A stretch of 64,000 nt of DNA, from assembly GCF_009727155.1 (NCBI RefSeq), contig NZ_WNWM01000002.1:6634001-6698000 (forward strand), in the 5' to 3' direction. The notes below the pieces were generated by a model, which saw nothing but the letters and a program-made list of their open reading frames with translations, searched no databases and was not told the DNA's origin. Position numbers and translations under genes: made by a program. This DNA is from Pseudoduganella dura (GTDB taxonomy: Bacteria > Pseudomonadota > Gammaproteobacteria > Burkholderiales > Burkholderiaceae_D). Shown here one piece after another: positions 43,093 to 55,532 of this stretch; position 1 is the stretch's first letter; every line of letters starts with the position of its first letter.

Positions 43093-44460
43093 ATGGCGTT
43101 GTCGATCTGGATGCAGGCACTGGGACCGGGCGCCGCGAAGGCCGCCACGGCACTGCGCGCGGCGCTCGGCAGCAGCGGGGTGGCGGTTGGCGACGGCGCG
43201 AAAGCGGGCGGCGCGGCAGGCTTCGGTGTCGTGCTCTGCGGTGCGTGCGATGGCGCGCTGCTGCAGACTATCCAGGACATCGGGCGCAGTGCCGCCGTGC
43301 TGGCCGTCGATTGCACGCCCGAGTCCCTGCCGCCGGACGCGATGTGGGCGCTGCTCGACGCCGGCGCCACCGACCTGCTGGCGTGGACGTCGGCCGAACT
43401 GTGCGCGCAACAGATCGCGGCCCGCCTGCAACGGTGGGATGCGCTGCAGAAGCTGATGGCTTCGAATGCCGTGCGGGGCTGCCTCGTGGGCGGCAGCGCG
43501 CCGTGGCGGGCGCTCGTACAGGGCGTCGTCGAAGTGGCGGCGTTCACGCAGTCTCCCGTGCTGATCACCGGCGAGACGGGGACCGGCAAGGACCTGATCG
43601 CCCAGCTGATCCACAAATTGTCGGGTGCGCCCGGCGAATTGACCGTGCTCGATTGCACCACGCTGTCGCCCGAGCTCGCCGGCTCCGAACTGTTCGGCCA
43701 TGAACGGGGCGCGTTCACCGGCGCCATCAGTGCGCGCGACGGCGCCTTCGCGCTGGCCGACGGCGGCATCCTGTTCCTGGACGAGGTCGGCGAACTGCCG
43801 TTGCCGTTGCAGGCGCAGCTGCTGCGCGTGATCCAGGAAGGAAAGTACAAGCGGGTCGGCAGCAACATCTGGCAGCCCAGCAGGTTCAGGCTCGTGTGCG
43901 CCACCAACCGCGACCTGGAAGCCGATATCGCCACCGGCGCGTTCCGTGCCGACCTGTACTACCGCATCGCCGCGTGGCGCTGCCGTCCACCGCCGCTGCG
44001 CGAACGCCAGGCGGACATCCTGCCGCTGGTCGACCATTTCCTGCGCCAGCTGGACCCGCGGGGCCAGGGATGCCAGCTGGACGGGGCGGTGCGCGACTAC
44101 CTGCTGACGCGCGACTACAAGGGCAATGTGCGCGACCTGCGCCAGACCGTGGCGCGTATCTGGTACCGGCACACCGGTCCCGGCCCCATCACGATCGGCG
44201 ACGTGCCGCCGGACGAACGCCTGCACCACGCCCCCGCCTGGCCGGACGCGCCGTTCCGCGACGCCATCCGCCACGCCGTCGACCGCGGAATGTCGCTGGC
44301 GCGCATCGGCCAGGCCGCCACCGACACCGCCATCCGGCTCGCGCTCGAGCAGGAAGGCGACAACAACCAGCGCGCCGCCCAGCGGCTGGGCGTGACGGAC
44401 CGGGCGCTGCAGATCCGGCGCAAGGCGGCAAGGGATGGGGAGCCGGACAGCCGGCACTGA
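43093..44460 (+). CDS. Sigma-54 enhancer-binding protein with pseudo-receiver domain
   Basis: A 455-residue activator of sigma-54 RNA polymerase. The AAA+ domain (about 135-370) has Walker A GETGTGKD, the sigma-54 contact loop GAFTGA and Walker B GGILFLDEVGEL. The C-terminus has a Fis-type helix-turn-helix (NNQRAAQRLGVTDRALQIRR). The N-terminal 120 residues resemble a receiver fold (GFGVVLCGACDG, LLDAGATDLLAW) without clear phosphorylation residues. The ATG at 43093 has GAGG 5 nt upstream; a TTG at 43036 is in frame. It converges on the operon at 44749-53061, which has a sigma-54 promoter, so it is the obvious candidate activator. Confidence 0.92.
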   Translation: MALSIWMQALGPGAAKAATALRAALGSSGVAVGDGAKAGGAAGFGVVLCGACDGALLQTIQDIGRSAAVLAVDCTPESLPPDAMWALLDAGATDLLAWTSAELCAQQIAARLQRWDALQKLMASNAVRGCLVGGSAPWRALVQGVVEVAAFTQSPVLITGETGTGKDLIAQLIHKLSGAPGELTVLDCTTLSPELAGSELFGHERGAFTGAISARDGAFALADGGILFLDEVGELPLPLQAQLLRVIQEGKYKRVGSNIWQPSRFRLVCATNRDLEADIATGAFRADLYYRIAAWRCRPPPLRERQADILPLVDHFLRQLDPRGQGCQLDGAVRDYLLTRDYKGNVRDLRQTVARIWYRHTGPGPITIGDVPPDERLHHAPAWPDAPFRDAIRHAVDRGMSLARIGQAATDTAIRLALEQEGDNNQRAAQRLGVTDRALQIRRKAARDGEPDSRH

Positions 44461-44748: not shown

Positions 44749-45480
44749 TCAGCCGCCCTGCCCGATCAGCCGCAGGAAGTTCAGCCCGGTGATCAGCGCC
44801 TCGTCGTCCTTGTTCAACCCCAGCAGCCGCACCTTGTGGAGTTCCAGCCCCGGGTGCAGCCACGGTCCGTCCGAGCCGAACAGCACCTTGTGCGGGCCGG
44901 CGCGCCGCACGGCTTCGCACAGCAGGTCGAAGCGCCGGATGCCGGATGTGTCCGTGTAGATGTTCGGGTGCCGCGCCAGATGGTCGATCAGCGCCAGCTG
45001 CGACGACCACTCGTCGGCGAAGCTGCCCAGGTGCGGCAGGATGAAGTCGACGTCCGGGTATTGCGTGGCCAGCAGTTCGGCCACGTGCACGTCGCCCATC
45101 GGGTCGTACAGCACGGGCAGGCCGAAGGTGCGCGCGGCATCGCAGATCTCGCCGCTGATCGGCGCATCGTGCCGGTGCACCTTGATGCCGACGAAGCCAT
45201 GGCGTTCGACCGCCGTGCGCACCATCGCGCCGATGCGGCCCCGGTCGCGGGCCGCGTGCACGAACGCCAGGCCGTAGTACCGTTCCGGCTGGGCCGCCAC
45301 GAGTTCGGCGACGGCGGCGTTGGCGCGCGCGTAGTCCGAGTGGAACGCGGCCAGCAGCACCGTGCGGTCGATGCCGGCCGCCGCGGCACGGCGCCCGTAC
45401 CGCGCCAGCGCCAGGTCGCTGTCCCACGGCCCCGTCAGGCCGTCGCCGGGGCCGGCATGGCAGTGGCTGTCGATGATCAT
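44749..45480 (-). CDS. Amidohydrolase-family protein
   Basis: A 243-residue TIM-barrel metal-dependent hydrolase of the amidohydrolase-2 type. It starts MIIDSHCHAGPG with the HxH metal motif, has GFVGIKVH and VDFILPHLGSF with further ligands, and ends with LFGSDGPWLHP carrying the catalytic Asp. Members include decarboxylases and lactonases for aromatic or cyclic acids, so the substrate is open. It is the last gene of the sigma-54-controlled operon, 18 bp after the first Gly-core gene. Confidence 0.85.
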   Translation of the reverse strand: MIIDSHCHAGPGDGLTGPWDSDLALARYGRRAAAAGIDRTVLLAAFHSDYARANAAVAELVAAQPERYYGLAFVHAARDRGRIGAMVRTAVERHGFVGIKVHRHDAPISGEICDAARTFGLPVLYDPMGDVHVAELLATQYPDVDFILPHLGSFADEWSSQLALIDHLARHPNIYTDTSGIRRFDLLCEAVRRAGPHKVLFGSDGPWLHPGLELHKVRLLGLNKDDEALITGLNFLRLIGQGG

Positions 45481-45498
45481 GGCGCGCCGCCCGCACCG

Positions 45499-46086
45499 CT
45501 ACACGCGCGCCGACGGCACGTGCTGCCGCATCGCCGCCAGCAGCGCATCGCGCACGGCGGCCGGGCTCCCGTCGCCATCGGCGGCGTGTTGCGCGGCGCT
45601 GCCCGCGATGCGCACGAAGCGGCGCGCCATCTCGAACTCGGCCTGCTCCGGGTCCATGCCTTCCGCTTCCATTTCGAGCGCCTTGGCCAGCGCCGAGCCT
45701 GCCGCCTTGCCGATCATCGTGCCGACGCCGGGAATCGGAATCATCGAACCGAGCGCGCCGCCGACGAACGGCAGCGCCGTCTTGGCGATCCCCTTCAGCA
45801 CGCCGCCCAGCGGCTTGACCACCTTGCCGACCACCGAGCCGACTTTCTTGATGCCTTTCCACGCTTTCTTGAACAGCCCGCCGAGGAACTGGTCCAGCTC
45901 TTCCTCGCTGGCGACGGACAGCAGTTCCATCGCCAGTTCCATTTCCTCGACCTCCGAAAACGGCCCTTCGAGCTCGCCCGGGCCGCCGAATTCGGCATTG
46001 AAGGTGGCACCGAGCGGCAGTACCTCGAACGTTGCCTGCGAGCGGCACCGGCCGCAGGTGCCGCAACTGCATTGTGATGCGTTCAT
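45499..46086 (-). CDS. Acidic protein with glycine-rich core, paralogue 1
   Basis: A 195-residue protein of unknown function. It starts with a Cys-rich patch (CSCGTCGRC), followed by an acidic helix EEMELAMELLSVASEEELDQ and FLGGLFKKA, then a glycine-rich amphipathic stretch (VVKPLGGVLKGIAKTALPFV, GGALGSMIPIPGVGTMIGKA) and a C-terminal block LEMEAEGMDPEQAEFEMARR leading into FVRIAGSAA. The acidic helix and C-terminal block recur in the proteins at 51636 and 52408. The glycine spacing could form a membrane-inserting glycine zipper. GAGGAGA precedes the ATG at 46086. It lies in the eight-gene operon. Confidence 0.75.
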   Translation of the reverse strand: MNASQCSCGTCGRCRSQATFEVLPLGATFNAEFGGPGELEGPFSEVEEMELAMELLSVASEEELDQFLGGLFKKAWKGIKKVGSVVGKVVKPLGGVLKGIAKTALPFVGGALGSMIPIPGVGTMIGKAAGSALAKALEMEAEGMDPEQAEFEMARRFVRIAGSAAQHAADGDGSPAAVRDALLAAMRQHVPSARV

Positions 46087-46102
46087 GTCGATCTCCTCGT
46101 GT

Positions 46103-47023
46103 TCAATCCCATCCAAGCAATTCCATTTCCATTTCCAGCTCCGCGTTCTGGTTCGTCAGCACACCCGGGTGGTTTTGCAGCATCGCCCGGTTGATCGCCA
46201 TTTCGATGTTGCGGCGCGCCGGCTCGGGCCGGCCGCTTTCGGCGATGTAGACATGGTGCCCCGCCACCGGCAACCCGAGTACCGTCGCTCCCAGCCGGTG
46301 CTTGACCAGCCGCTCGTGCAGGTTGCCGGTCTGGCCGTTGTAGGCTTTCCACGCGTTGCCCTTCCTGAACGTGATCAGGTAGAAGCCGGGCTTGCGCGGC
46401 AGCCCCAGGTTGCGCACGTTATCCAGGCGCCCCACGTACCGGAACGCGGGCGCGGCGGTCGCCAGCGACCCGATCACGGCACGCAGCGTCGCCGGCATTT
46501 CTTCCTGCGGGCCGCCGGCATCGCCGCCGTCCGCGGCGGGCAGGTCGATCGTTTCGATGGGCGGCGCCGGCCTGTCGTCGGGTTCGGCAGCCGGTTCCGC
46601 GGCAGGCGCCGGCAATAGATACCCCATCGGTTCGCTGACCATCACGCCGCCCGGCCAGCCGCCGTAGAACGGCCCCCAGTAAGGGCCACGCGGCCAGCGC
46701 CCCGGCCGAGGACCGGGCCAGGGCGCCTGGGGCGGCCGGGGCTTGCCCTGCGGCCGCGAAGGCCGCGCCACCGGCCCGCGGCCCGGCCTGGCACCTGCCC
46801 GGTAGACCGGCCGCGGGCCGCCCCTGCCCATGCCGCCCCTGCCGCCCATCGACATGCGGCCGCGCTCTTCCTCGGATTCGCCTTCGTCCTCGCCCTGCCA
46901 CTCGTTGGCCCACTCGTTGGCCCACTCATTGGTCCACTCAGCGGCAGTCCCCGCTTCGGCTTCCGACCCGCCCGCCGCGAACGGCAGCGCCTCGAACTCG
47001 TCGTTCATTCGTTCCTCGTTCAT
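46103..47023 (-). CDS. GIY-YIG-like protein with low-complexity N-terminus
   Basis: A 306-residue protein. The N-terminal half is disordered: repeated WTNEWANEWANEW, an acidic run, then Gly/Pro/Arg-rich sequence. The last 94 residues resemble a GIY-YIG nuclease fold: GFYLITFR (in place of GIY), AYNGQTGNLHERLVKHR (YIG equivalent plus the catalytic-type Arg), a later Glu in RRNIEMAIN and Asn in LTNQNAE. The N-terminal half looks unlike any repair nuclease. AAGGAG precedes the ATG at 47023, which overlaps the upstream stop (ATGA). Nuclease activity is not certain. Confidence 0.7.
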   Translation of the reverse strand: MNEERMNDEFEALPFAAGGSEAEAGTAAEWTNEWANEWANEWQGEDEGESEEERGRMSMGGRGGMGRGGPRPVYRAGARPGRGPVARPSRPQGKPRPPQAPWPGPRPGRWPRGPYWGPFYGGWPGGVMVSEPMGYLLPAPAAEPAAEPDDRPAPPIETIDLPAADGGDAGGPQEEMPATLRAVIGSLATAAPAFRYVGRLDNVRNLGLPRKPGFYLITFRKGNAWKAYNGQTGNLHERLVKHRLGATVLGLPVAGHHVYIAESGRPEPARRNIEMAINRAMLQNHPGVLTNQNAELEMEMELLGWD

Positions 47024-48102
47024 GCCAGCTCCTTCACGTGATGCCGCACGGCGTTGGCCGCCCGTGCGATGTCCGCCCTCGTGTGGTCCGCGCGCAGCAG
47101 GAACGTCAGCAGCGATGCGCCGTCCCTGCACTGCGGTACCGCCATCACCCCGTCGCGCCGCAGGCCCGCGAGCGCCGCCGCCAGGTCGATCCGGCGCGGC
47201 AGCCGAACCGCCTGCACCGGGAAACCGCCGCCCTCGCAGGCAATACCCCGCGCCGCCAGCGCGGCGCGGAACTCCGCGATCCGGCACCGCAAGGCGTGGC
47301 GCAACGCATCGCCGCATGCCGCGTTCAGCTGCAGCGCATGCCGTGCCGCCAGCACCGTGGCCACCGGCGGCGGGCTCGCGTGCAACCGCGTGTCGCTGAA
47401 GGCTTCGAAGCGCTGCACGATGGCCGCGTCGCCGGCCAGTACCGCCAGCGGCACGCCGAAGCCCTTTGCCAGCGAGGCGCCCACCAGCACCGGCGCTCCG
47501 GCCAGGCCGTGCGCGACGACCGAACCGCCGCCCTGCCGGCCCAGCACGCCGAGCGCTTGCGTATCGTCCAGCAGCAGCAGCCCGCCTTCGCGCGCCGCCA
47601 GCGCCGCATAGCGCGCCAGCGGCGGCGGGCCGGCGCCGCCCGGGCAGTAGCCGTCCGCCAGGATCAGCGGCCGGCGGCCCAGCCCGCGTGCCAGCAGCGC
47701 CAGCCGCTCGAGCTCGGGCAAGGCGCCGCTGCGGAACGCACGCAACGGCAGGCCCAGGCCGGCCGCGCGCTCGGCTCCCCAGCGCGCCACCGGGTAGGCG
47801 GCGCCGTCCACCAGCACCATGTAGCGCCGCCGGCCCCGCGCATCGGCCCGCTCATCGAGCTGCTGTCGTGCCAGCACGCCGAACAGGTCCCAGAACAGGT
47901 GCAGCGTGGAGGGCAACAGCGTCGCTGCCGCGCAGCCCTGCAGTCGCGCCAGGTCGCGCGCCACCGCGCGGGCGCCCGGTACTTCTGCCAGAGCCGCCGG
48001 TTTGCCCAGCGTGAGCGCCGGCCAGTCGTCCAGCGCGGCGCGCCCGTGCCGCAGGCCCAGGTACAGCGCGCTGGTGAAATCCGCCGCCGCGTCCGCGCCC
48101 AC
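47020..48102 (-). CDS. Alpha-oxoamine-synthase-like PLP enzyme
   Basis: A 360-residue fold-type I PLP protein resembling 8-amino-7-oxononanoate synthase (BioF) and related acyl-CoA:amino acid condensing enzymes. Seen are the start SALYLGLRHG, the cofactor Asp in LLLLDDTQALGVLG, the probable Schiff-base Lys in VGASLAKGFGVPLAVLAG and the C-terminal FLLRADHTRADIARA. It is shorter than the usual 385-400 residues at the N-terminus. The GTG start lies 9 bp after the upstream stop. Other bio genes are absent and its operon is unrelated to biotin synthesis, so a different product is likely. Confidence 0.75.
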   Translation of the reverse strand: MGADAAADFTSALYLGLRHGRAALDDWPALTLGKPAALAEVPGARAVARDLARLQGCAAATLLPSTLHLFWDLFGVLARQQLDERADARGRRRYMVLVDGAAYPVARWGAERAAGLGLPLRAFRSGALPELERLALLARGLGRRPLILADGYCPGGAGPPPLARYAALAAREGGLLLLDDTQALGVLGRQGGGSVVAHGLAGAPVLVGASLAKGFGVPLAVLAGDAAIVQRFEAFSDTRLHASPPPVATVLAARHALQLNAACGDALRHALRCRIAEFRAALAARGIACEGGGFPVQAVRLPRRIDLAAALAGLRRDGVMAVPQCRDGASLLTFLLRADHTRADIARAANAVRHHVKELA

Positions 48103-48111
48103 CCCCGGTGC

Positions 48112-50322
48112 TCACACGGCCGTGCGCTGCTGCTGCGCCAGGCGCTGCCGCAGCAGGACCGAAGGCAGCGTGGCTTCCTCGGCCGGATTGGCCGCATCGA
48201 TCGACAGGTCGACCCCGGTGGCGGCGCGGTAGGCGTGGATATAGCCCTGCGCCTGCGGCCGCCAGAAACGCGCCCAGTTGAACGCCTGCGTGGCCTCGTA
48301 CACATCGCTCCAGTGGCCGAAGCGGATCGACAGCAGCAGCTGCTCGCCGAAGATCGCCAGGTTCCGGAAGTGCATCACGCTCGTGTCGCTCCACATCTGC
48401 AGCTTCTTCATCGCGTCCACCCGGTCCATCCACGGTTCCGGGTAGGCCACCATCACGCGCGTGGGCAGGAACTCGCGGAACTCGGGCCGCGCCAGCAGCC
48501 ATTGCTGCATCAGCATCTCGATCCGCGCCGTCGACGGCAGGTCGCCGTACTGGTTGTGCGCGCCCTGCGACAGGATCAGGTGCACTTCCTTCAGCGCATT
48601 GAGGATCGGGAACGCATCGGCCTTCACGGTGGTGTCGTCGTCCTGCCGGTAGAACGACGTGAGGAGCCGGAGCAGGTGGTGGAACGCTTCGAGGAACTTC
48701 GAACGGCTGTCGGCCGGCCGCATGTTGCGCACCGCCTTCCCGTCCAGCCGGATACCGTAATGGTGGTCGTACTCGTAATTGCGCCGCACCACCGTGAGCC
48801 GGTGCTGTTCGTCCTGCGTGTATCCCCACAACAGGTTGTTCAGCGGCCGCAGCATGTCGATCTCGGTGTTGGCCAGCGGGTCGGTGGCCAGCGGCGAGCG
48901 CAGGTTCTGGAAGCGCTGCGTGATCACGTTCATCGTCTGCACCAGCATGCCTTCTTCCTGCCAGTAGCTCCAGATCAGTTCGATCAGGCAGGGGTTCGAC
49001 AGCCGGTCCTGGATGATGCCGAAGCACAGCTCGGCTTCCTCGCAATGGGTCGTGCTCGGCACGATGATCGGCACGTCCGGCAGCTTGCGGCGGATCACGG
49101 CGAGGTAAGGCAGCATCTCGGTGCCGCCCACCGACTCCAGGTAATCCTCGATAAGCGTGTCGCGCAGGTTGCCGGCCGACGGAATGTCGCGCCGGTCGAG
49201 GTAGGCGTTGTCGTTGACCGGATCGAAGGCATACGGCTCGCGGAACACGCCGCAGTTCACCATCACGAAGGCCTCGGTGGCGGCCTTGAGCACGCGGTAG
49301 GCTTCGGAATCGGTGAACGGCAGCGCGCGGCGCGTCTTCAGCGACTGGAAAACCGAGGCCTTCTTGCCGAAGCGCGAGCGCTCGAACGGCGCTCCGGCCG
49401 CGTCGGCGGGCGGCACGCAGAACAGCTGGTCGAGGAAATCCATGTAGTTGTTGAAGCCCAGCGCCTCGGTGCTGTTGCGGATCAGCGTCCACAGCGCCAG
49501 GTCCGGCGTGGCTTCCGTTTCGGTGCGCGACAGCGACACGCCGATGTTGCCGGAGATCGGCTGCGCCGGCCGTTCCTCGGCATTGAATTCGCCGTTCACG
49601 GCCAGCATGGCGCCATTCGGAATGTTCGCCCCCACCCTGTGCGGCGTGCCGGTGATCAGGCCGGCGCGCCGGGCGAACACGAGCCGGCCCGTGAACTGGT
49701 ACCGGCCCGGCTTGCGGATCAGCAGGCCGGCGGCATAGGCGCCGCCGGACTCCGGCTGCCACGTGCCGTCCGCCTCGAGCCCCACGCGGTCGCTGACGGC
49801 GCTGCCGCTGCCCTGGAAGGTCACGGTGGCGATGGCGTGGTTGCCCACGATCGCATCCTTGGTGCGCTGCGCCGCGCCCGGGGATTCGAAGTCGAACGTG
49901 ACCTGGGGTCCGATCGGCAGCCGGATCGCCAGTTTCAATACCTGTTCGGCGCCCACCAGGCCGCCGACGTAGCGGTAGACGTTGGGGCCGTCGGCCGGCG
50001 TCACGTGATCGTACAGCGCGAAATACACGTCGGGCTCCAGCCCCTCGAACGTGACGATGCCTTCCGGCCCGGTCCGTTCGTCGATCAACGCCTCGTGATC
50101 CTCCGGCCGCCAGTTGTTCCAGTCATCGACGGTCCAGCTGCGGAACACGCCCGCATCGAGGTCCCGCGCACGGAACAGCCGCAGCGTGGCGCCCACCAGC
50201 GGCCGGCCGGTCACCTCGTCCATTACGCGCACCTCGATCGCGCCGCTGCCTTCCACCACCGCCACCACCGTCACGGCGGTCACCGCGGCAGGGGCCCCTC
50301 TCGCCATTTTCCTCGTACTCAT
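48112..50322 (-). CDS. Large protein of unknown function with N-terminal Cna-B/carboxypeptidase-regulatory-like domain
   Basis: A 736-residue protein. Residues about 28-120 (AIEVRVMDEVTGRPLVGATL, then TGPEGIVTFEGLEPDVYFAL) look like a beta-sandwich of the carboxypeptidase-regulatory or Cna-B type. The rest, about 600 residues, is mostly helical and rich in Trp, Tyr and Phe; I recognise no family in it. No signal peptide or membrane segment is obvious apart from a short hydrophobic N-terminus (AAVTAVTVVAVV). It is the largest protein of the eight-gene operon and could be its structural component. It begins 18 bp after the protease-like gene. Confidence 0.7.
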   Translation of the reverse strand: MSTRKMARGAPAAVTAVTVVAVVEGSGAIEVRVMDEVTGRPLVGATLRLFRARDLDAGVFRSWTVDDWNNWRPEDHEALIDERTGPEGIVTFEGLEPDVYFALYDHVTPADGPNVYRYVGGLVGAEQVLKLAIRLPIGPQVTFDFESPGAAQRTKDAIVGNHAIATVTFQGSGSAVSDRVGLEADGTWQPESGGAYAAGLLIRKPGRYQFTGRLVFARRAGLITGTPHRVGANIPNGAMLAVNGEFNAEERPAQPISGNIGVSLSRTETEATPDLALWTLIRNSTEALGFNNYMDFLDQLFCVPPADAAGAPFERSRFGKKASVFQSLKTRRALPFTDSEAYRVLKAATEAFVMVNCGVFREPYAFDPVNDNAYLDRRDIPSAGNLRDTLIEDYLESVGGTEMLPYLAVIRRKLPDVPIIVPSTTHCEEAELCFGIIQDRLSNPCLIELIWSYWQEEGMLVQTMNVITQRFQNLRSPLATDPLANTEIDMLRPLNNLLWGYTQDEQHRLTVVRRNYEYDHHYGIRLDGKAVRNMRPADSRSKFLEAFHHLLRLLTSFYRQDDDTTVKADAFPILNALKEVHLILSQGAHNQYGDLPSTARIEMLMQQWLLARPEFREFLPTRVMVAYPEPWMDRVDAMKKLQMWSDTSVMHFRNLAIFGEQLLLSIRFGHWSDVYEATQAFNWARFWRPQAQGYIHAYRAATGVDLSIDAANPAEEATLPSVLLRQRLAQQQRTAV

Positions 50323-50340
50323 GTCGCTCTCCTAGAAAGG

Positions 50341-51639
50341 TCATTCACCTGTCGTCCGCGCCGTTGCGCCGTTCTCGAGCGCGCCCCGCATCGCCCAGTG
50401 CGTGAGCAGGCGCGCCAGCAGCACGCTCTCGTCTTCCGGTGCCAGCAGGCCATCCGCGCGGGCCTGGCCGATCACTGCCAGTACCAGCGAAGGCGCGCTG
50501 TCGTACATGCGCTGCGGCGCCGCGTGCCACCAGCGGTAGAGCCGCGCCAACCGCGCCGGCTGGCGGCCCCCCACCGCCATCGCTTCCGCCAGCGAGGCGC
50601 CGCGCAGCGCGCGCGGCCGGTGCTGGGCCAGCAGCCCCGCCATCGCGGGCAGGCTGGCCGTCAGCTGTTCCAGCAGCAGCCGGTCGCGCGCCGCCAGGCC
50701 GTCGAGCGGATAGAAGCTGTCCCACAGCCGTTCGATGCGCGTCCACTGCGGATGCGGATACAGCAGCCGCCCCAGCGCGCAACTGAGCTTCACGCGCAGC
50801 CACGGCACCGGGTGCGGGTCGTCGCCGTTGAGCCGGAATACGAACACGCGCGGCAGCGACAGCACGCCGATCAGCCCCAGCGTGGCAACCACGCCCACCC
50901 GCGCCAGCGACCAGAAATCGGCCACCACCTCGGAGATCCAGCGCTCCCACAGCTGCCAGACGACGGCCGGGCCGCTGCCGCCATGCTGCAGCGCCTGCAG
51001 CACCGGCCGCAGCGAACCGACCAGATCCAGCAGCGCTGCGCCCTGGTGCCCCACCTCGTGCACCAGCGACGAGGCGATGCTGCTGCCGATCATCCGTTCG
51101 CGCGGCACGCGGATGATCGCGACCGGGTTCTCGCCGCCGCCGGGCAGCCGCGTGCGCGCCCGCCGGATCGCCGCGCCCGGGCCGCGGTCCAGGTAGCACA
51201 CCAGCGGCGGACTGTCGAAGTAGCCGCCCGGCAGTTGCAGCGCGTCGCGCGATACCGCGTCGAGCCCCGCCAGCCAGATGCCGTTGCCATGCTCGCTGCG
51301 CTGCGTGACGACATCGATGAACAGGTCGAACTGCGTCAGCGCGGCATTGAATTTCAGGCGCAGGAAGGTGAAGCGCCGCTGCGCGTCCGCCACCGATACC
51401 CGGTTTGCCGCGGGGCTTTTCAGCCAGCCCAGGAAGCGCCGCACCATCGCGCGCAGCTCGCGCCGCCCCAGCGTGAGGTGCCGTTCGATCGCCGCCTGCG
51501 CCGCCGCGGGCAGCGCGGCCGCCGGCACCATCGGCTCGATCAGCACGAACGGCTGCATGCGGTCGACACGGTTCAGCAGCGAGCGCGCCTCCTGCGCCAG
51601 CATCCACGCCGCATAGGTACCGATGGCCATGGCCGTCAC
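50341..51639 (-). CDS. Gluzincin-like zinc protease with membrane segment
   Basis: A 432-residue protein with the zinc motif HEVGH (residues 194-198) and a downstream SEVVAD (Glu about 237), an arrangement resembling the E-x-x-AD third-ligand motif of M48 proteases. A hydrophobic stretch (VGVVATLGLIGVLSL, about 250-265) follows and may cross the membrane. The rest does not match a family I know. The GTG start overlaps the stop of the Gly-core gene (GTGA), so translation is coupled; an ATG three codons in is the alternative. It may process one of the three acidic paralogues, which is speculation from context. Confidence 0.72.
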   Translation of the reverse strand: MTAMAIGTYAAWMLAQEARSLLNRVDRMQPFVLIEPMVPAAALPAAAQAAIERHLTLGRRELRAMVRRFLGWLKSPAANRVSVADAQRRFTFLRLKFNAALTQFDLFIDVVTQRSEHGNGIWLAGLDAVSRDALQLPGGYFDSPPLVCYLDRGPGAAIRRARTRLPGGGENPVAIIRVPRERMIGSSIASSLVHEVGHQGAALLDLVGSLRPVLQALQHGGSGPAVVWQLWERWISEVVADFWSLARVGVVATLGLIGVLSLPRVFVFRLNGDDPHPVPWLRVKLSCALGRLLYPHPQWTRIERLWDSFYPLDGLAARDRLLLEQLTASLPAMAGLLAQHRPRALRGASLAEAMAVGGRQPARLARLYRWWHAAPQRMYDSAPSLVLAVIGQARADGLLAPEDESVLLARLLTHWAMRGALENGATARTTGE

Positions 51640-52388
51640 ACGCCGTACAGCACGATCTTGCGGCCCTGGCGCATCCAGCGCCCGCTGCTGGCGCCCCGCC
51701 CGCCGTAGCCGCCACCGCGGTTCTGGCCGGAAGACTGGCCCCCCTGGGCGCCCCCCATGCCCTGCCCGCCCCGGCCCTGCCCCTGCCCCTGGCCTTGCCC
51801 TTGGCCCTGGCTCAGCAGGCCGGGCGCGAACTGCTTCGCCGCGGCGGTGGCGGCCGCCTGGGCGATCTGGCGCGGGTCGCCGCCTTTCGCCTGGGCGGCG
51901 CGGTTGACGGTATCCGCCGCGATCTTCACGAAGGTCTTGGCGCCTTCGAATTCACGGTCCTCGCCGGACATTTCGCCTTCCGCTTCCAGCCCCAGCGCGC
52001 CGCCGGCCGCCGATGCCAGCCCGCTGCCGATCTTGGCGCCCAGCGGACCGCCGAAGTAGCCGCCGATCGCGCCGCCGGCCAGCGGCAGCGCCTTCTTCGC
52101 CACGCCCTTGAGCACGCCGCCGACCGCCTGGCCGACCGGCGACTTGATGATGTTGCCGGCCACCGACGCGGCCTTTTTCAGGAAGCTGCCGAGGAACTGG
52201 TCCAGCTCCTGCTCGTTGGAGACCGACAGTAGCTCGTTGGCCAGCTCCATTTCGTCGGCCTCGGACAGCAGGCCGCCGCCTTCGCCGGTCCATTCGCCCT
52301 GGCCGAATTCGTACTGTTCCATTTCGTAGCCGCTGCCACCGCCAAATTCCTGGCCGAATTCCAGGGTCGTGCGATCGAGGTCATGCAT
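51636..52388 (-). CDS. Acidic protein with glycine-rich core, paralogue 2
   Basis: A 250-residue protein of unknown function. An acidic N-terminus (TLEFGQEFGGGSGYEMEQYE) leads into ADEMELANELLSVSNEQELD and QFLGSFLKKA, then a glycine-rich core (GGVLKGVAKKALPLAGGAIG, GYFGGPLGAKIGSGLASAAG), then LGLEAEGEMSGEDREFEGAK followed by TFVKIAA. The C-terminus is a GQ repeat (GQGQGQGQGQG) and a Gly/Arg-rich tail ending KIVLYGV. Blocks before and after the core match paralogue 1. GGGAGC precedes the ATG at 52388. The stop overlaps the protease-like gene. Confidence 0.75.
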   Translation of the reverse strand: MHDLDRTTLEFGQEFGGGSGYEMEQYEFGQGEWTGEGGGLLSEADEMELANELLSVSNEQELDQFLGSFLKKAASVAGNIIKSPVGQAVGGVLKGVAKKALPLAGGAIGGYFGGPLGAKIGSGLASAAGGALGLEAEGEMSGEDREFEGAKTFVKIAADTVNRAAQAKGGDPRQIAQAAATAAAKQFAPGLLSQGQGQGQGQGQGRGGQGMGGAQGGQSSGQNRGGGYGGRGASSGRWMRQGRKIVLYGV

Positions 52389-52407
52389 GATTAGCTCCCG
52401 TTGAAAG

Positions 52408-53061
52408 TCAAACATCAAATCCGGAACGGTCATGCCGCCCCGCCTGCAAATCGATGGTCTGGATGCGCGGCACGGCCTGCGGCCCCGCCGCGCGCTGCCG
52501 CAACAGCCCGGGCGCGTTGCGGCGCGCCGCCTGCATCAGCGCGCGCTGCGCTGCCTGGCTTGCTGCCCGGTTCGCGGCCTGCCCGCCCTGCTCCAGGGGC
52601 GACTGCCCGGCACGCGCCAGCGCCGTCTGCGCCGCGTCGGCGGCCAGCCGCACGAAGTGCCGCGCCAGTTCGAATTCCTTGTCTTCGGGGGAAAGCCCCT
52701 CCAGTTCCAGCCCGAACACGCCGGACGCCTTGCGTTTCAGGTCGGCCGGCGCGCGCGTCGCGTTCAGCGGAAAGATCATCCGCGCCGCGCGGTGCAGCAC
52801 GCGCAGGACCGGTTCGCGCAGCGCCCGCTGGTGCGCATCGGCGGCGGGCCCCACCAGGTCGGCCAGCACCGGCGCCAGTTCGTCCGCGCTGCGCGCCTCC
52901 AGCAGCCGGGCGGCGAAATCCATTTCGCCGTATTCGTTTCCGGCAATGCGGTCGGCAATGCGCTCGCGCCACGGCGCCGCGGTCTCGCCTGCGGCCGGCA
53001 ATTCCAGTTCCGGCCTGAAATCGAGCAGCCGGCGATCGGCGGGAGGACGGGCTTGTTCCAT
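52408..53061 (-). CDS. Acidic helical protein, paralogue 3, first gene of the operon
   Basis: A 217-residue protein. It keeps the two flanking blocks of the other paralogues in weaker form, MDFAARLLEARSADELAPVL and LELEGLSPEDKEFELARHFV followed by RLAADAA, but the glycine-rich core is replaced by a shorter basic segment (LRVLHRAARMIFPL). The C-terminus is Ala/Gln/Arg-rich. GGAG lies 8 nt before the ATG at 53061. It stands about 40 nt downstream of the predicted sigma-54 start site and 19 bp before paralogue 2. Confidence 0.72.
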   Translation of the reverse strand: MEQARPPADRRLLDFRPELELPAAGETAAPWRERIADRIAGNEYGEMDFAARLLEARSADELAPVLADLVGPAADAHQRALREPVLRVLHRAARMIFPLNATRAPADLKRKASGVFGLELEGLSPEDKEFELARHFVRLAADAAQTALARAGQSPLEQGGQAANRAASQAAQRALMQAARRNAPGLLRQRAAGPQAVPRIQTIDLQAGRHDRSGFDV

Positions 53062-53110
53062 GGTGGTCTCCGCGAGGGGTGCGGCCCCGTGCCGCACGTA
53101 CACGGGTAAG

Positions 53111-53127
53111 TGCAAGCGGCGTGCCAG
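53111..53127 (-). promoter_or_regulatory. Sigma-54 (-24/-12) promoter of the eight-gene operon
   Basis: On the minus strand the sequence CTGGCACGCCGCTTGCA matches the sigma-54 consensus (YTGGCACGrNNNTTGCW) at every position except the one purine, with the required 10 bp between the GG and GC pairs. The start would fall near 53100, about 40 nt before the ATG at 53061, which has a Shine-Dalgarno. Confidence 0.85.
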
Positions 53128-53168
53128 GAGTTTTGCGGGGAAGGATGCCGGGTGGCGGCGAAAAGCGG

Positions 53169-53195
53169 TTCGCCCCGCGGGATACGCGGGGCGAA
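53169..53195. promoter_or_regulatory. Palindrome upstream of the sigma-54 promoter
   Basis: Perfect 11-bp arms TTCGCCCCGCG / CGCGGGGCGAA are separated by 5 bp. The centre is about 82 bp upstream of the predicted start, a usual distance for an enhancer-binding-protein site. It also lies 56 bp past the stop of the dioxygenase-like gene, so a role as a transcript-end hairpin is the alternative. Confidence 0.5.
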
Positions 53196-53250
53196 AGCGG
53201 CGAAGCGATGTTCGCCGGAAGGGGTGCCGGGCCTTTGGCCCGTCAGGTCA

Positions 53251-54147
53251 TCAGGCGATGACCGCGACCGTCAGCGTGGCCACGTAGCCGTCGGTGACGT
53301 TGCCCGTCACCGTGGCAAGCTGCAGCGAATAGCCGTCGCTGAAGACGTTGTCGGTCGCGAAGCTGATCTGCGCGAGGTTGCGCACGCTGGCGCTGTAGCC
53401 GGAGGTGGCATACACCTCGTTGCAGGCGGCTAGCGGGAACGCGAACTGCGACGTCTTGATGCGGTTCGACGCGCTCGATGCCTTGGCCAGGCTGGAATAC
53501 ACCTCGAAGTGCACGTGCGGCATGCGGCCCGAATAGCAGGCCGGGAAGATCGTGGTGAACGTCACGTCCCCGTTGGCATCCGTCTCCTGCACGCCGCGCA
53601 GATAGTTCTGGTTGGTCACGCCGCTCGAATACAGCGAGTAGTTGCCGTCGCGGTCGCAGTGCCACAGGTACACGGCGAACGCGTTGGCCGATGCGCAGCT
53701 GTTGTTGGCGTTCACGATGTGCAGCTTGATCGTCAGCGGCACGCCGGCCGCGGTGCCGCTCATGCTGCCGAAGCTGCTGCGGATGTCGCTGCGCACCACG
53801 CCGCTCTGCGTGAGCACGTTGACCACGCCGCTGCTGTTGCTGTTGGTGCCGTCGGCCGGGTATGGGCCGCCGGTTTCTTCCGGGATCACCGAGCAGCTTC
53901 CCGATGTCGTGGTGGTGGTCGTGCCGGTGGTGGTGCCGGTGGTGGTGCCCGTCGTGCCGGTCGTGGTGGTGCCGGTCGTGGTCGTGCCGGTGGTCGTGCT
54001 GGCTGAGGTATCGGAAGACCCGCCGCATCCCAGGATGGGCAGCGATGCCGCGCTGGCCAGCAGCCAGCGCAGCGACCGGCGCCGGCCGGTGGTGGTGTTC
54101 AGCATCGTCTGCAGGTCTTCTTCCAGGCTGTGCCCGTGATGTGCCAT
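53251..54147 (-). CDS. Intradiol-dioxygenase-like lipoprotein
   Basis: A 298-residue protein with an N-terminal twin-basic, hydrophobic segment ending in a lipobox (RRRSLRWLLASAASLPILGC), then a Thr/Gly-rich linker (about 52-82) and a domain related to intradiol ring-cleavage dioxygenases. The expected Fe(III) ligand positions are visible: Tyr in TGGPYPADG, Tyr in DGNYSLY or CYSGRMPHVHF and two His in PHVHFEVY. Such exported homologues are common and their substrate is usually unknown. The linker is encoded by an imprecise tandem repeat. It is monocistronic or weakly linked to the next gene upstream. Confidence 0.82.
   Translation of the reverse strand: MAHHGHSLEEDLQTMLNTTTGRRRSLRWLLASAASLPILGCGGSSDTSASTTTGTTTTGTTTTGTTGTTTGTTTGTTTTTTSGSCSVIPEETGGPYPADGTNSNSSGVVNVLTQSGVVRSDIRSSFGSMSGTAAGVPLTIKLHIVNANNSCASANAFAVYLWHCDRDGNYSLYSSGVTNQNYLRGVQETDANGDVTFTTIFPACYSGRMPHVHFEVYSSLAKASSASNRIKTSQFAFPLAACNEVYATSGYSASVRNLAQISFATDNVFSDGYSLQLATVTGNVTDGYVATLTVAVIA
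53905..54000. repeat. Tandem repeat encoding a Thr/Gly linker
   Basis: Units of 12-15 nt built from GTGGTGCCGGTC variants repeat about seven times and encode TTTTG/TTG linker units of the dioxygenase-like lipoprotein. All units are multiples of three, so length changes would stay in frame. Confidence 0.7.
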
Positions 54148-54211
54148 GGCTTGCTCCTAGTGGTCTCGTTGCTGTTGTGTGACGCTTGCCGTGTCGCTGA
54201 TCCAGCGATAC

Positions 54212-54877
54212 TCAGGCGGTGGTATTGATCAGGTTGCCGGCGCTGCCGGCCGACGGCAGCCTGGACGACAGCGTCTGCAGGAAGCTGGACAACTTCGACG
54301 AGGCATCGCTGCCGTCTCCGCCAAGCGCCGTGAGCAGGCTCTTGAATGAGCTCTGCAGCGCGGCCGTGCTGTCGGAGGCCTCGGTGCCGGCGACGCTGTC
54401 GGTACTGGCGGCGCTTTCCGTGCCGCCAGTACCATCCTCCAGCGACGAGATCAGGCTTTGCAGGTCCGATGCCAGCTTGCCGGGCCCGCCGCCGAGGTCG
54501 GGCCCGCCCTGCGGCGGCTCGCCATATTGCGCCGCACTGTCCGTGCTGCCGCTGTTCTGCGCATGCAGCGCGCCCATCAGGTTCTCGAGGAAGCTGCCGA
54601 GCGCCTGCGCCTCGCTGTCGGTACCGGTTTCGCTGGACTCGCTTGTGCTCGTGCTCGTACCCGAGCTGGCCGATGTCGAACCGGTGTCATCGGTACCGCC
54701 GATGCCGACGGATTTCAGCGCGTCGGCGATCGCGCCGAGCAGCCCGCCTCCGTCGCCGGGCGGCGGTGGCGGCATCTGGCTGCTCTGGCGAGTGGCCGTC
54801 GTCGACGACGTGCCGGACAGGCGGCTGGCATAGGACAGCTGGCTGGCCGCGCCGGCGGTCAGGGAGTTGATCGTCAT
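54212..54877 (-). CDS. Ser/Thr/Gly-rich protein of unknown function
   Basis: A 221-residue low-complexity protein with no signal peptide or recognisable domain. It starts MTINSLTAGAASQLSYASRL, has a Pro run (PPPPPG), several Ser/Thr/Asp stretches and short amphipathic helices (ALGSFLENLMGALHAQ, LQSSFKSLLTALGG, LSSFLQTLSSRL). It lies 19 bp downstream of the Spy/CpxP-like gene on the same strand, so it may share CpxR control. Confidence 0.65.
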   Translation of the reverse strand: MTINSLTAGAASQLSYASRLSGTSSTTATRQSSQMPPPPPGDGGGLLGAIADALKSVGIGGTDDTGSTSASSGTSTSTSESSETGTDSEAQALGSFLENLMGALHAQNSGSTDSAAQYGEPPQGGPDLGGGPGKLASDLQSLISSLEDGTGGTESAASTDSVAGTEASDSTAALQSSFKSLLTALGGDGSDASSKLSSFLQTLSSRLPSAGSAGNLINTTA

Positions 54878-54896
54878 GATGGTGGCTCCGGTTCGG

Positions 54897-55532
54897 TTAC
54901 TGGACGGTGGCGGGTGACGGTTCGCGGCCCGGTTCGCGACCTGGTTCGCGATCTGGTTCGCGGCCCGGCTCGCCGCGAGGCGGACGGCCGCTCCTGCGCT
55001 CCTCGAGCGACTTGCGCTGCCCGGCGGTCAGCACGCCCAGCACTTTCTGTTCGGTGCGCAGGTGCGACAGCGTGATATTGGCATCGGCCTGCGCGGCCGC
55101 CTGCGCCAGCCTGACGGCGGCGCCATCGTCGTATTTCGCAGCGCGATGCAGTTCGAACAGGGCGCGGTCGGCCTTGTCGCGTGCCTTGTCCTGCTCGCGC
55201 AGGTACGGGATCTGGCCGTGCACGATGGAGAAGATCTTGTCCTGTTGCGCTTCGGTCAGGTCGATGCCGCGCAGGTACGGCGGCACGCCGTCGAAGCCGG
55301 GGCCGGGGCCGAAACCGGGACCGCGGCCGGGACCGCCGCCACGCGGGCCATCGCGCTCGTCACCGGCCTGCTGCGCCGGGCCGCGGCGTTCGTCGGCGCG
55401 CGGGCCGGCATCGGGCTTGCGGCCGGGTGCGCCGGGCGCTTCGTCGCCGGCGATGTCCGCCATCGCCGCCAGCGGCAGGGCCAGCACGGCGGCGAGCAGG
55501 AGTCGTTGCAGGTCTTGTTTTGTATTGTTCAT
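54897..55532 (-). CDS. Spy/CpxP-like periplasmic protein
   Basis: A 211-residue exported protein with a signal peptide (QRLLLAAVLALPLAAMA). Two LTxxQ motifs mark the Spy/CpxP family: LTEAQQDKIF and LTAGQRKSL. A Gly/Pro-rich linker and a C-terminal GREP repeat (EPGREPDREPGREPGREP) flank the helical region. Family members are envelope-stress chaperones and CpxA-type kinase modulators. It is divergent from the cpxRA-like genes with two CpxR boxes in between. AAGGA precedes the ATG at 55532. The frame is open further upstream but without family similarity. Confidence 0.87.
   Translation of the reverse strand: MNNTKQDLQRLLLAAVLALPLAAMADIAGDEAPGAPGRKPDAGPRADERRGPAQQAGDERDGPRGGGPGRGPGFGPGPGFDGVPPYLRGIDLTEAQQDKIFSIVHGQIPYLREQDKARDKADRALFELHRAAKYDDGAAVRLAQAAAQADANITLSHLRTEQKVLGVLTAGQRKSLEERRSGRPPRGEPGREPDREPGREPGREPSPATVQ

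Follow-up and report, generated by a model that had tools for sequence, protein, structure and literature searches.

The DNA analysed here, a window of 64,000 nucleotides from Pseudoduganella dura (contig NZ_WNWM01000002.1), contains on its minus strand a compact operon of eight genes (p1 to p8; 44749-53061), which is one copy of a conserved and widespread module present in several phyla. The module has a near-constant core, p2-p3-p4, usually together with p5 and p8, and is accompanied by a convergent activator gene, a sigma-54 -24/-12 promoter site and a palindromic enhancer. Downstream of p4 lies a variable slot, whose genes in part share a short N-terminal tag and encode many cell wall domains, along with some proteases and GIY-YIG-like domains. 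The reading that we prefer, with a probability of about 0.42, is that the operon belongs to an apparently undescribed module that deploys tagged proteins outside the cytoplasm independently of Sec. A more specific version, to which we would commit a little less readily, is that p2/p7, p3 and p4 export or inject polymorphic wall hydrolases, proteases and nuclease-like effectors carrying an F-E-x-x-P-F tag, under a dedicated activator and its twin binding sites. If true, this would give hosts of environmental importance (nitrifiers, methanotrophs and Janthinobacterium) a secretion or weapon system independent of Sec and distinct from the numbered types that we know. Even without a mechanism, several Pfam-unmatched families are linked by their conserved gene order, by an enhancer pair that is diagnostic and by a cargo tag that can be read off the sequence. 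Each of these makes the function directly testable.

A first-pass annotation, made from the sequence alone, had described eight packed genes under sigma-54 control and proposed to check whether the set recurs in other genomes. The packing is as described, with spacings from p1 to p8 of 19 bp, a 4-bp overlap, 18 bp, 9 bp, a second 4-bp overlap, 16 bp and 18 bp, and the set does recur, in the same order, in relatives from several phyla. A scan for p4 relatives, using one genome per species, yielded 218 stretches, the best 80 of which were used for the locus analyses; denominators of the gene-order counts that follow are the kept loci with enough flanking sequence. Many of the 80 are close kin and several distant ones come from binned genomes, and genes were called with a simple in-house caller and tblastn, so that some starts and fusions will be wrong. 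The p3 gene lies immediately upstream of p4 in all 73 testable loci, and a p2-type gene is among the two genes before p3 in 69 of 69. Downstream, p5 follows within three genes of p4 in 66 of 68 loci and p8 in 56 of 62, and the convergent sigma-54 activator is present in 61 of 62. The arrangement is retained in the loci that, as far as their titles tell, lie outside Oxalobacteraceae (L094-L133 minus L120): p3 35/35, p2-type gene 34/34, p5 31/32, p8 25/27 and activator 26/27.

Of 392 genomes of the family, 59 encode p4; for the class the figure is 3 of 274 and for the phylum 3 of 299, each count including the window's own genome. It is single-copy in most carriers, as in the window's own genome (6.95 Mb, two contigs). 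Hosts belong to Pseudomonadota, Nitrospirota, Acidobacteriota, Bacteroidota and Chloroflexota, and include Janthinobacterium, Massilia, Duganella, Rugamonas, Variovorax, Polaromonas, Rhizobacter, Nitrosomonas and Nitrospira, as well as methanotrophs, Microvirga, Chloracidobacterium, Bacteroidota and an Anaerolineae bin. Partial p4 matches are found on four plasmids (Rhizobium, Ensifer, Paraburkholderia); in the viral_contigs search 12 stretches matched a search pattern and none was confirmed as a p4 relative. The p4 phylogeny places the window's copy among Pseudoduganella and scatters Nitrospirota, which given long branches and binned genomes leaves horizontal transfer of p4 unproven from the tree. 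The most distant p4 locus examined (L053) carries upstream a sensor-kinase-like grouped gene and an NtrC-like gene (both names are our own). The convergent activator is there too, and p4 is followed by an Amidase_2 gene.

The sequence features of a sigma-54-dependent operon, namely a -24/-12 site, an upstream enhancer and an activator gene, are all present, and together with the co-occurrence of the genes they strongly support the prediction of a single sigma-54-controlled transcription unit. The -24/-12 pattern used on the window matches at three places in it. In the comparison of loci, a strict pattern is present upstream of the operon in 52 of 69, compared with 2 of 210 controls. It is found in 20 of 34 distant loci, several of which on inspection read ATGC in place of TTGC. 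A pattern widened only after this inspection of the data matches 63 of 70 operons, the window's own included, against 9 of 345 upstream regions of flanking genes. At least one GCGAA-N6-TTCGC palindrome, with at most one mismatch, precedes 69 of the same 70 operons and 8 of the same 345 flanking-gene regions, in a motif that was first spotted by eye and then counted largely on the same loci. By our reading of the hits, the spacing between copies is 41-43 bp in 50 of the 53 loci with at least two palindromes, the exceptions being L103, L106 and L111, where the second hit lies elsewhere.

Of 392 whole genomes of the family, many of them near kin of the loci in which the motif was found, 47 have the exact 42-bp pair, at one place each, and one matches a reversed control pattern. 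All 47 fall within the 59 p4-positive genomes and none among the 333 p4-negative ones, a restriction to operon-bearing genomes that applies to the exact paired form within the family; the exact pair is missing in 12 of the 59. In 44 of 47 genomes the pair shares a contig with p4 and lies 2.6-4.0 kb upstream of it; in the remaining 3 it is on another contig. The window's own genome has the exact pair once, and two further places, each with 2 mismatches, when up to two mismatches are allowed. Since the exact pair is confined to p4-positive genomes and occurs once in the window's genome, the activator looks dedicated to this operon, and it would presumably bind at the GCGAA-N6-TTCGC sites. Like NtrC-type activators such as RtcR and NorR, it contains an AAA+ sigma-54 domain with a strong profile match; it differs from them in an N-terminal domain of about 130 residues, for which no Pfam family was found in the three members scanned. 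A single aspartate of this domain, D94 within a GA-x-D motif, reaches 95% conservation or more across 63 sequences. In receiver domains the aspartate of a GA-x-D-type motif is not the phosphorylated one.

The variable slot, defined as the genes between p4 and p8 and thus including p6- and p7-type genes, provides the evidence for the tag. The pattern F[EDR]xxP[FL], which was derived from the gene listing before being counted, is present in the first 80 residues of 53 of 158 variable genes; the corresponding figures are 2 of 722 for flanking genes and about 0.9% for shuffled sequences. Among non-redundant variable genes it occurs in 31 of 81, starting at residues 4-7 in 25 of the 31, and the domains of the variable genes differ from one gene to another; the shared tag has a putative role in trafficking. 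In the window the tags read FEALPF (p6) and FEVLPL (p7). A Sec-like hydrophobic N-terminal stretch is predicted for only 2 of the 158 variable genes, and for none of the 53 tagged ones, compared with 209 of 722 flanking genes.

Variable genes were picked by hand for Pfam scanning, 37 of them at first, with nine further ones and one p5 added later. Of the 37, 20 have domains that cut or bind peptidoglycan (Amidase_2, PG_binding_1, Muramidase, VanY, NLPC_P60), one relative's wall hydrolase being strongly endolysin-like. The others comprise four with OmpA only, five with a trypsin-like domain only (one below cutoff), one weak HNH, one weak GIY-YIG and six without a match; the Extensin-like_C matches and some of the trypsin matches lie below cutoff. 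Two of the later nine genes also have a wall domain. The earlier description of p6 as GIY-YIG-like is plausible: p6 itself has no Pfam GIY-YIG match, although its relatives score 18.5-22.3 bits against a gathering cutoff of 22.6 and the motif residues of p6 align. In L095, L097, L100 and L123 a single protein combines Amidase_2 with a GIY-YIG-like domain, which makes p6 look like a truncated form of this type of cargo. The regulator, the enhancer pair, the leader tag, the variable cargo and the kinship of p6 with a cargo type that is elsewhere fused to an amidase all go beyond the first-pass annotation.

Pfam matches above cutoffs are restricted to two of the eight window proteins, p5 (Aminotran_1_2) and p8 (Amidohydro_2); for the remaining six, Pfam, PADLOC and PHROGs return nothing but weak sub-threshold matches of p7. 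As proposed at the outset, three of the small proteins are paralogues, two with glycine-rich cores: p2 and p7 align at 48% across residues 34-191 (E 4.7e-27), and p1, which lacks the full core, resembles the family weakly (42%, E 2.7e-6). In 66 of 71 loci an MH[DEN]xD motif occurs among the first 200 residues encoded by the gene preceding p3. The p2 protein is acidic at its N-terminus (charge -16 over the first 70 residues), basic in the glycine-rich core (+4 over the next 70), and conserved at its C-terminal end too. In L041, L045, L047, L048, L094, L104 and L122, a single gene appears to combine p1 and p2, judging by its length (about 390-450 aa) and the match to p2.

The proposed membrane protease, p3, has the HExxH motif and downstream glutamate of a gluzincin metallopeptidase, with HEVGH at 194-198 and H194, E195, H198 and E237 invariant in 76 sequences, and a single hydrophobic stretch (residues 250-268; Kyte-Doolittle (KD) value 2.09); these features speak for a putative metalloprotease, although no Pfam family profile matches it. 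The 736-residue p4, noted at the outset as a protein of unknown fold, is without a Pfam match, and among solved structures a sequence search found a single chain, at E 0.8. A first structure model from 12 sequences was poor (predicted local distance difference test score, pLDDT, 52.7); a second from 50 sequences reached 70.4, with several stretches of the helical part still below 50. The structural matches listed for the model fall mainly on its N-terminal CnaB/transthyretin-like sandwiches, and the helical part was assigned to no family by the structure search, a result that says nothing on novelty. This part contains two invariant ExxH motifs (E517/H520 and E545/H548) 28 residues apart, and the notion that they form a di-metal site is an idea only.

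Two enzymes complete the set, and both earlier assignments stand. The p5 protein resembles alpha-oxoamine synthases (BioF/Kbl/SPT/CqsA), matching their profiles (bioF, E 7.4e-16) and retaining what we take to be the pyridoxal phosphate (PLP) lysine and aspartate, with D179, K213 and H241 invariant in 75 sequences. It differs from them in scoring far below the equivalog cutoffs and in a DDTQ beside the PLP aspartate, also invariant in the 75 sequences, at a position where these enzymes usually have a histidine. The p8 protein is a member of Amidohydro_2 (2.6e-15), in which H6, H8, H102, H150 and D204 each reach 95% conservation or more across 60 sequences. In L096, L113, L115, L117, L118, L121 and L128 (Nitrosomonas, Nitrospira and others) a gene stands immediately before p8 that we label M20-type peptidase-like, presumptively, from gene grouping and without Pfam support.

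A dedicated export route is suggested because wall enzymes lacking Sec-like starts and a common tag occur together with near-constant glycine-rich proteins, a protease and a scaffold-like protein. Of the products that the first-pass annotation had considered, a secreted protein assembly fits best, the tagged and often wall-cutting proteins of relatives being almost free of Sec-like starts; a modified peptide is less likely, no enzyme of that kind of pathway being matched by Pfam or NCBIfam. The mechanism that we envisage is about as probable as the export reading itself. The activator would turn on the whole set together; the tag would mark cargo for the core; the glycine-rich p2/p7 proteins would cross, coat or perforate the envelope; p3 might clip p2 or the cargo upon release; p4 could act as a scaffold or receptor, possibly binding metal; and p5 and p8 may produce a small molecule or modification, or trim one. 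Several observations weigh against export. The main difficulty is that none of the operon proteins is recognizable as a conventional translocase or transport ATPase; nor was any clearly recognized as a multi-pass membrane protein. The crude hydropathy of p1, p2 and p7 is low (0.7-1.44). The strict tag is unmatched in two thirds of the variable genes. Seven of the later nine scanned genes, all from Oxalobacteraceae, are without a wall domain, and the window's own operon has no peptidoglycan domain by Pfam, p6 offering a GIY-YIG-like part only, which weakens a wall-directed role for this copy. Export also leaves p5 and p8 unexplained; these are too constant to ignore and point to a small molecule or modification.

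The nearest systems in action are type 10 secretion (holin/endolysin/spanin; ChiWXYZ, YenLC) and polymorphic toxins. In the former, as one published account describes it, a regulated cluster that includes a peptidoglycan hydrolase releases cytoplasmic proteins (PMC10847048). Regulated self-lysis of this kind, with p2/p7 as holin-like proteins, hydrolases opening the sacculus and the other cargo leaking out, would accommodate the wall hydrolases of many relatives, above all the endolysin-like one, the small glycine-rich proteins and the near absence of Sec-like starts, and a tight sigma-54 switch suits a rare and decisive event. We nevertheless consider it unlikely. PHROGs gives no holin or spanin match for p1, p2 and p7 (p7 weakly matches endolysin and tape-measure entries, at E values of 0.0035 and worse), and their hydropathy is low, both being weak tests; nor is a spanin matched among the window proteins scanned, where short spanins could escape detection. 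Furthermore, the module differs from type 10 secretion in its near-constant metalloprotease, p4, PLP enzyme and amidohydrolase and in its often tagged cargo. Lysis does not lead one to expect the protease, PLP and amidohydrolase genes, and the window's own copy shows no wall hydrolase by Pfam, although many relatives encode one. With polymorphic toxin systems the module shares a conserved core combined with exchangeable catalytic domains, some of them nuclease- or peptidase-like; it differs in showing no toxin-tip recombination on one long protein, and immunity genes were not recognized, although no dedicated search was made for them. In the text examined of a 2012 survey of polymorphic toxins, GIY-YIG, PLP-dependent, amidohydrolase and Nitrosomonas are absent (PMC3482391).

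Two further explanations are more improbable still, to a similar degree. The charge pattern of p2, the weak sub-threshold Pfam lantibiotic match of p7 (E 0.03) and the p2-type gene before p3 in all 69 testable loci would suit a bacteriocin-like or modified-peptide pathway, in which p2/p7 are precursors with an acidic leader and a membrane-active glycine-rich core, p3 is the leader peptidase, p5 and p8 are tailoring enzymes and the hydrolases are accessory weapons. However, p2 is long and conserved at its C-terminal end as well, which the usual cleaved precursors are not, and Pfam and NCBIfam match no ribosomally synthesized and post-translationally modified peptide (RiPP) enzyme, bacteriocin ABC transporter or immunity family among the eight proteins. 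Alternatively, the operon might build a surface or envelope structure, or remodel the envelope in a resting or stress state, with p4 and p2/p7 as structural proteins and the hydrolases acting on the cell's own wall. The pilin-like sandwiches of p4, the OmpA and PG_binding domains of the cargo and the single p4 of most carriers fit such a role; the variety of the cargo, with nuclease-like and protease domains, is more effector-like, and the variable genes as a rule lack a Sec-like start. Defence-system, phage and RiPP readings found little support in the Pfam/NCBIfam, PADLOC, PHROGs and viral-contig searches, the PADLOC anti-phage defence models giving a single weak match among the eight proteins (p7, 12.9 bits, E 0.0073). 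A literature search of partial coverage returned no description of the gene set, as the first-pass annotation had supposed, a weak test of absence from print; we tentatively file the module as a new kind of system.

Table 1. Coordinates within the 64-kb window of the operon genes, the activator gene and the regulatory sites.
Feature	Position	Strand	Description
p1	52408-53061	minus	217 aa; degenerate member of the p2/p7 family
p2	51636-52388	minus	250 aa; MHD[IL]D at the start, then an acidic leader and a Gly-rich core; GRW-x-RxGxxI at the C-terminal end
p3	50341-51639	minus	432 aa; HExxH..E metalloprotease-like; one hydrophobic stretch
p4	48112-50322	minus	736 aa; N-terminal CnaB/transthyretin-like beta sandwiches and conserved helical C-terminal part
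p5	47020-48102	minus	360 aa; alpha-oxoamine-synthase-like PLP protein
p6	46103-47023	minus	306 aa; cargo with an FEALPF tag, a middle region that is first acidic and then Gly/Pro-rich, and a C-terminal GIY-YIG-like domain
p7	45499-46086	minus	195 aa; p2 paralogue; CxCxxC start, FEVLPL tag
p8	44749-45480	minus	243 aa; Amidohydro_2 family
Convergent sigma-54 enhancer-binding activator	43093-44460	plus	Unmatched N-terminal domain, then AAA+ Sigma54_activat
Sigma-54 -24/-12 promoter TGGCACGCCGCTTGC	53112-53126	minus	Pattern search of the window
Proximal enhancer palindrome GCGAA-N6-TTCGC	53158-53173	minus	42 bp from the distal copy
Distal enhancer palindrome GCGAA-N6-TTCGC	53200-53215	minus	42 bp from the proximal copy

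The genes upstream of the operon (53251-55532) encode a protein that we read as dioxygenase-like and of lipoprotein type, small proteins and then a response regulator. The same genes adjoin the operon in the same-genus relatives L034, L035, L037, L046 and L047, among which the chromosomal site seems to be conserved; in other loci the neighbours differ.

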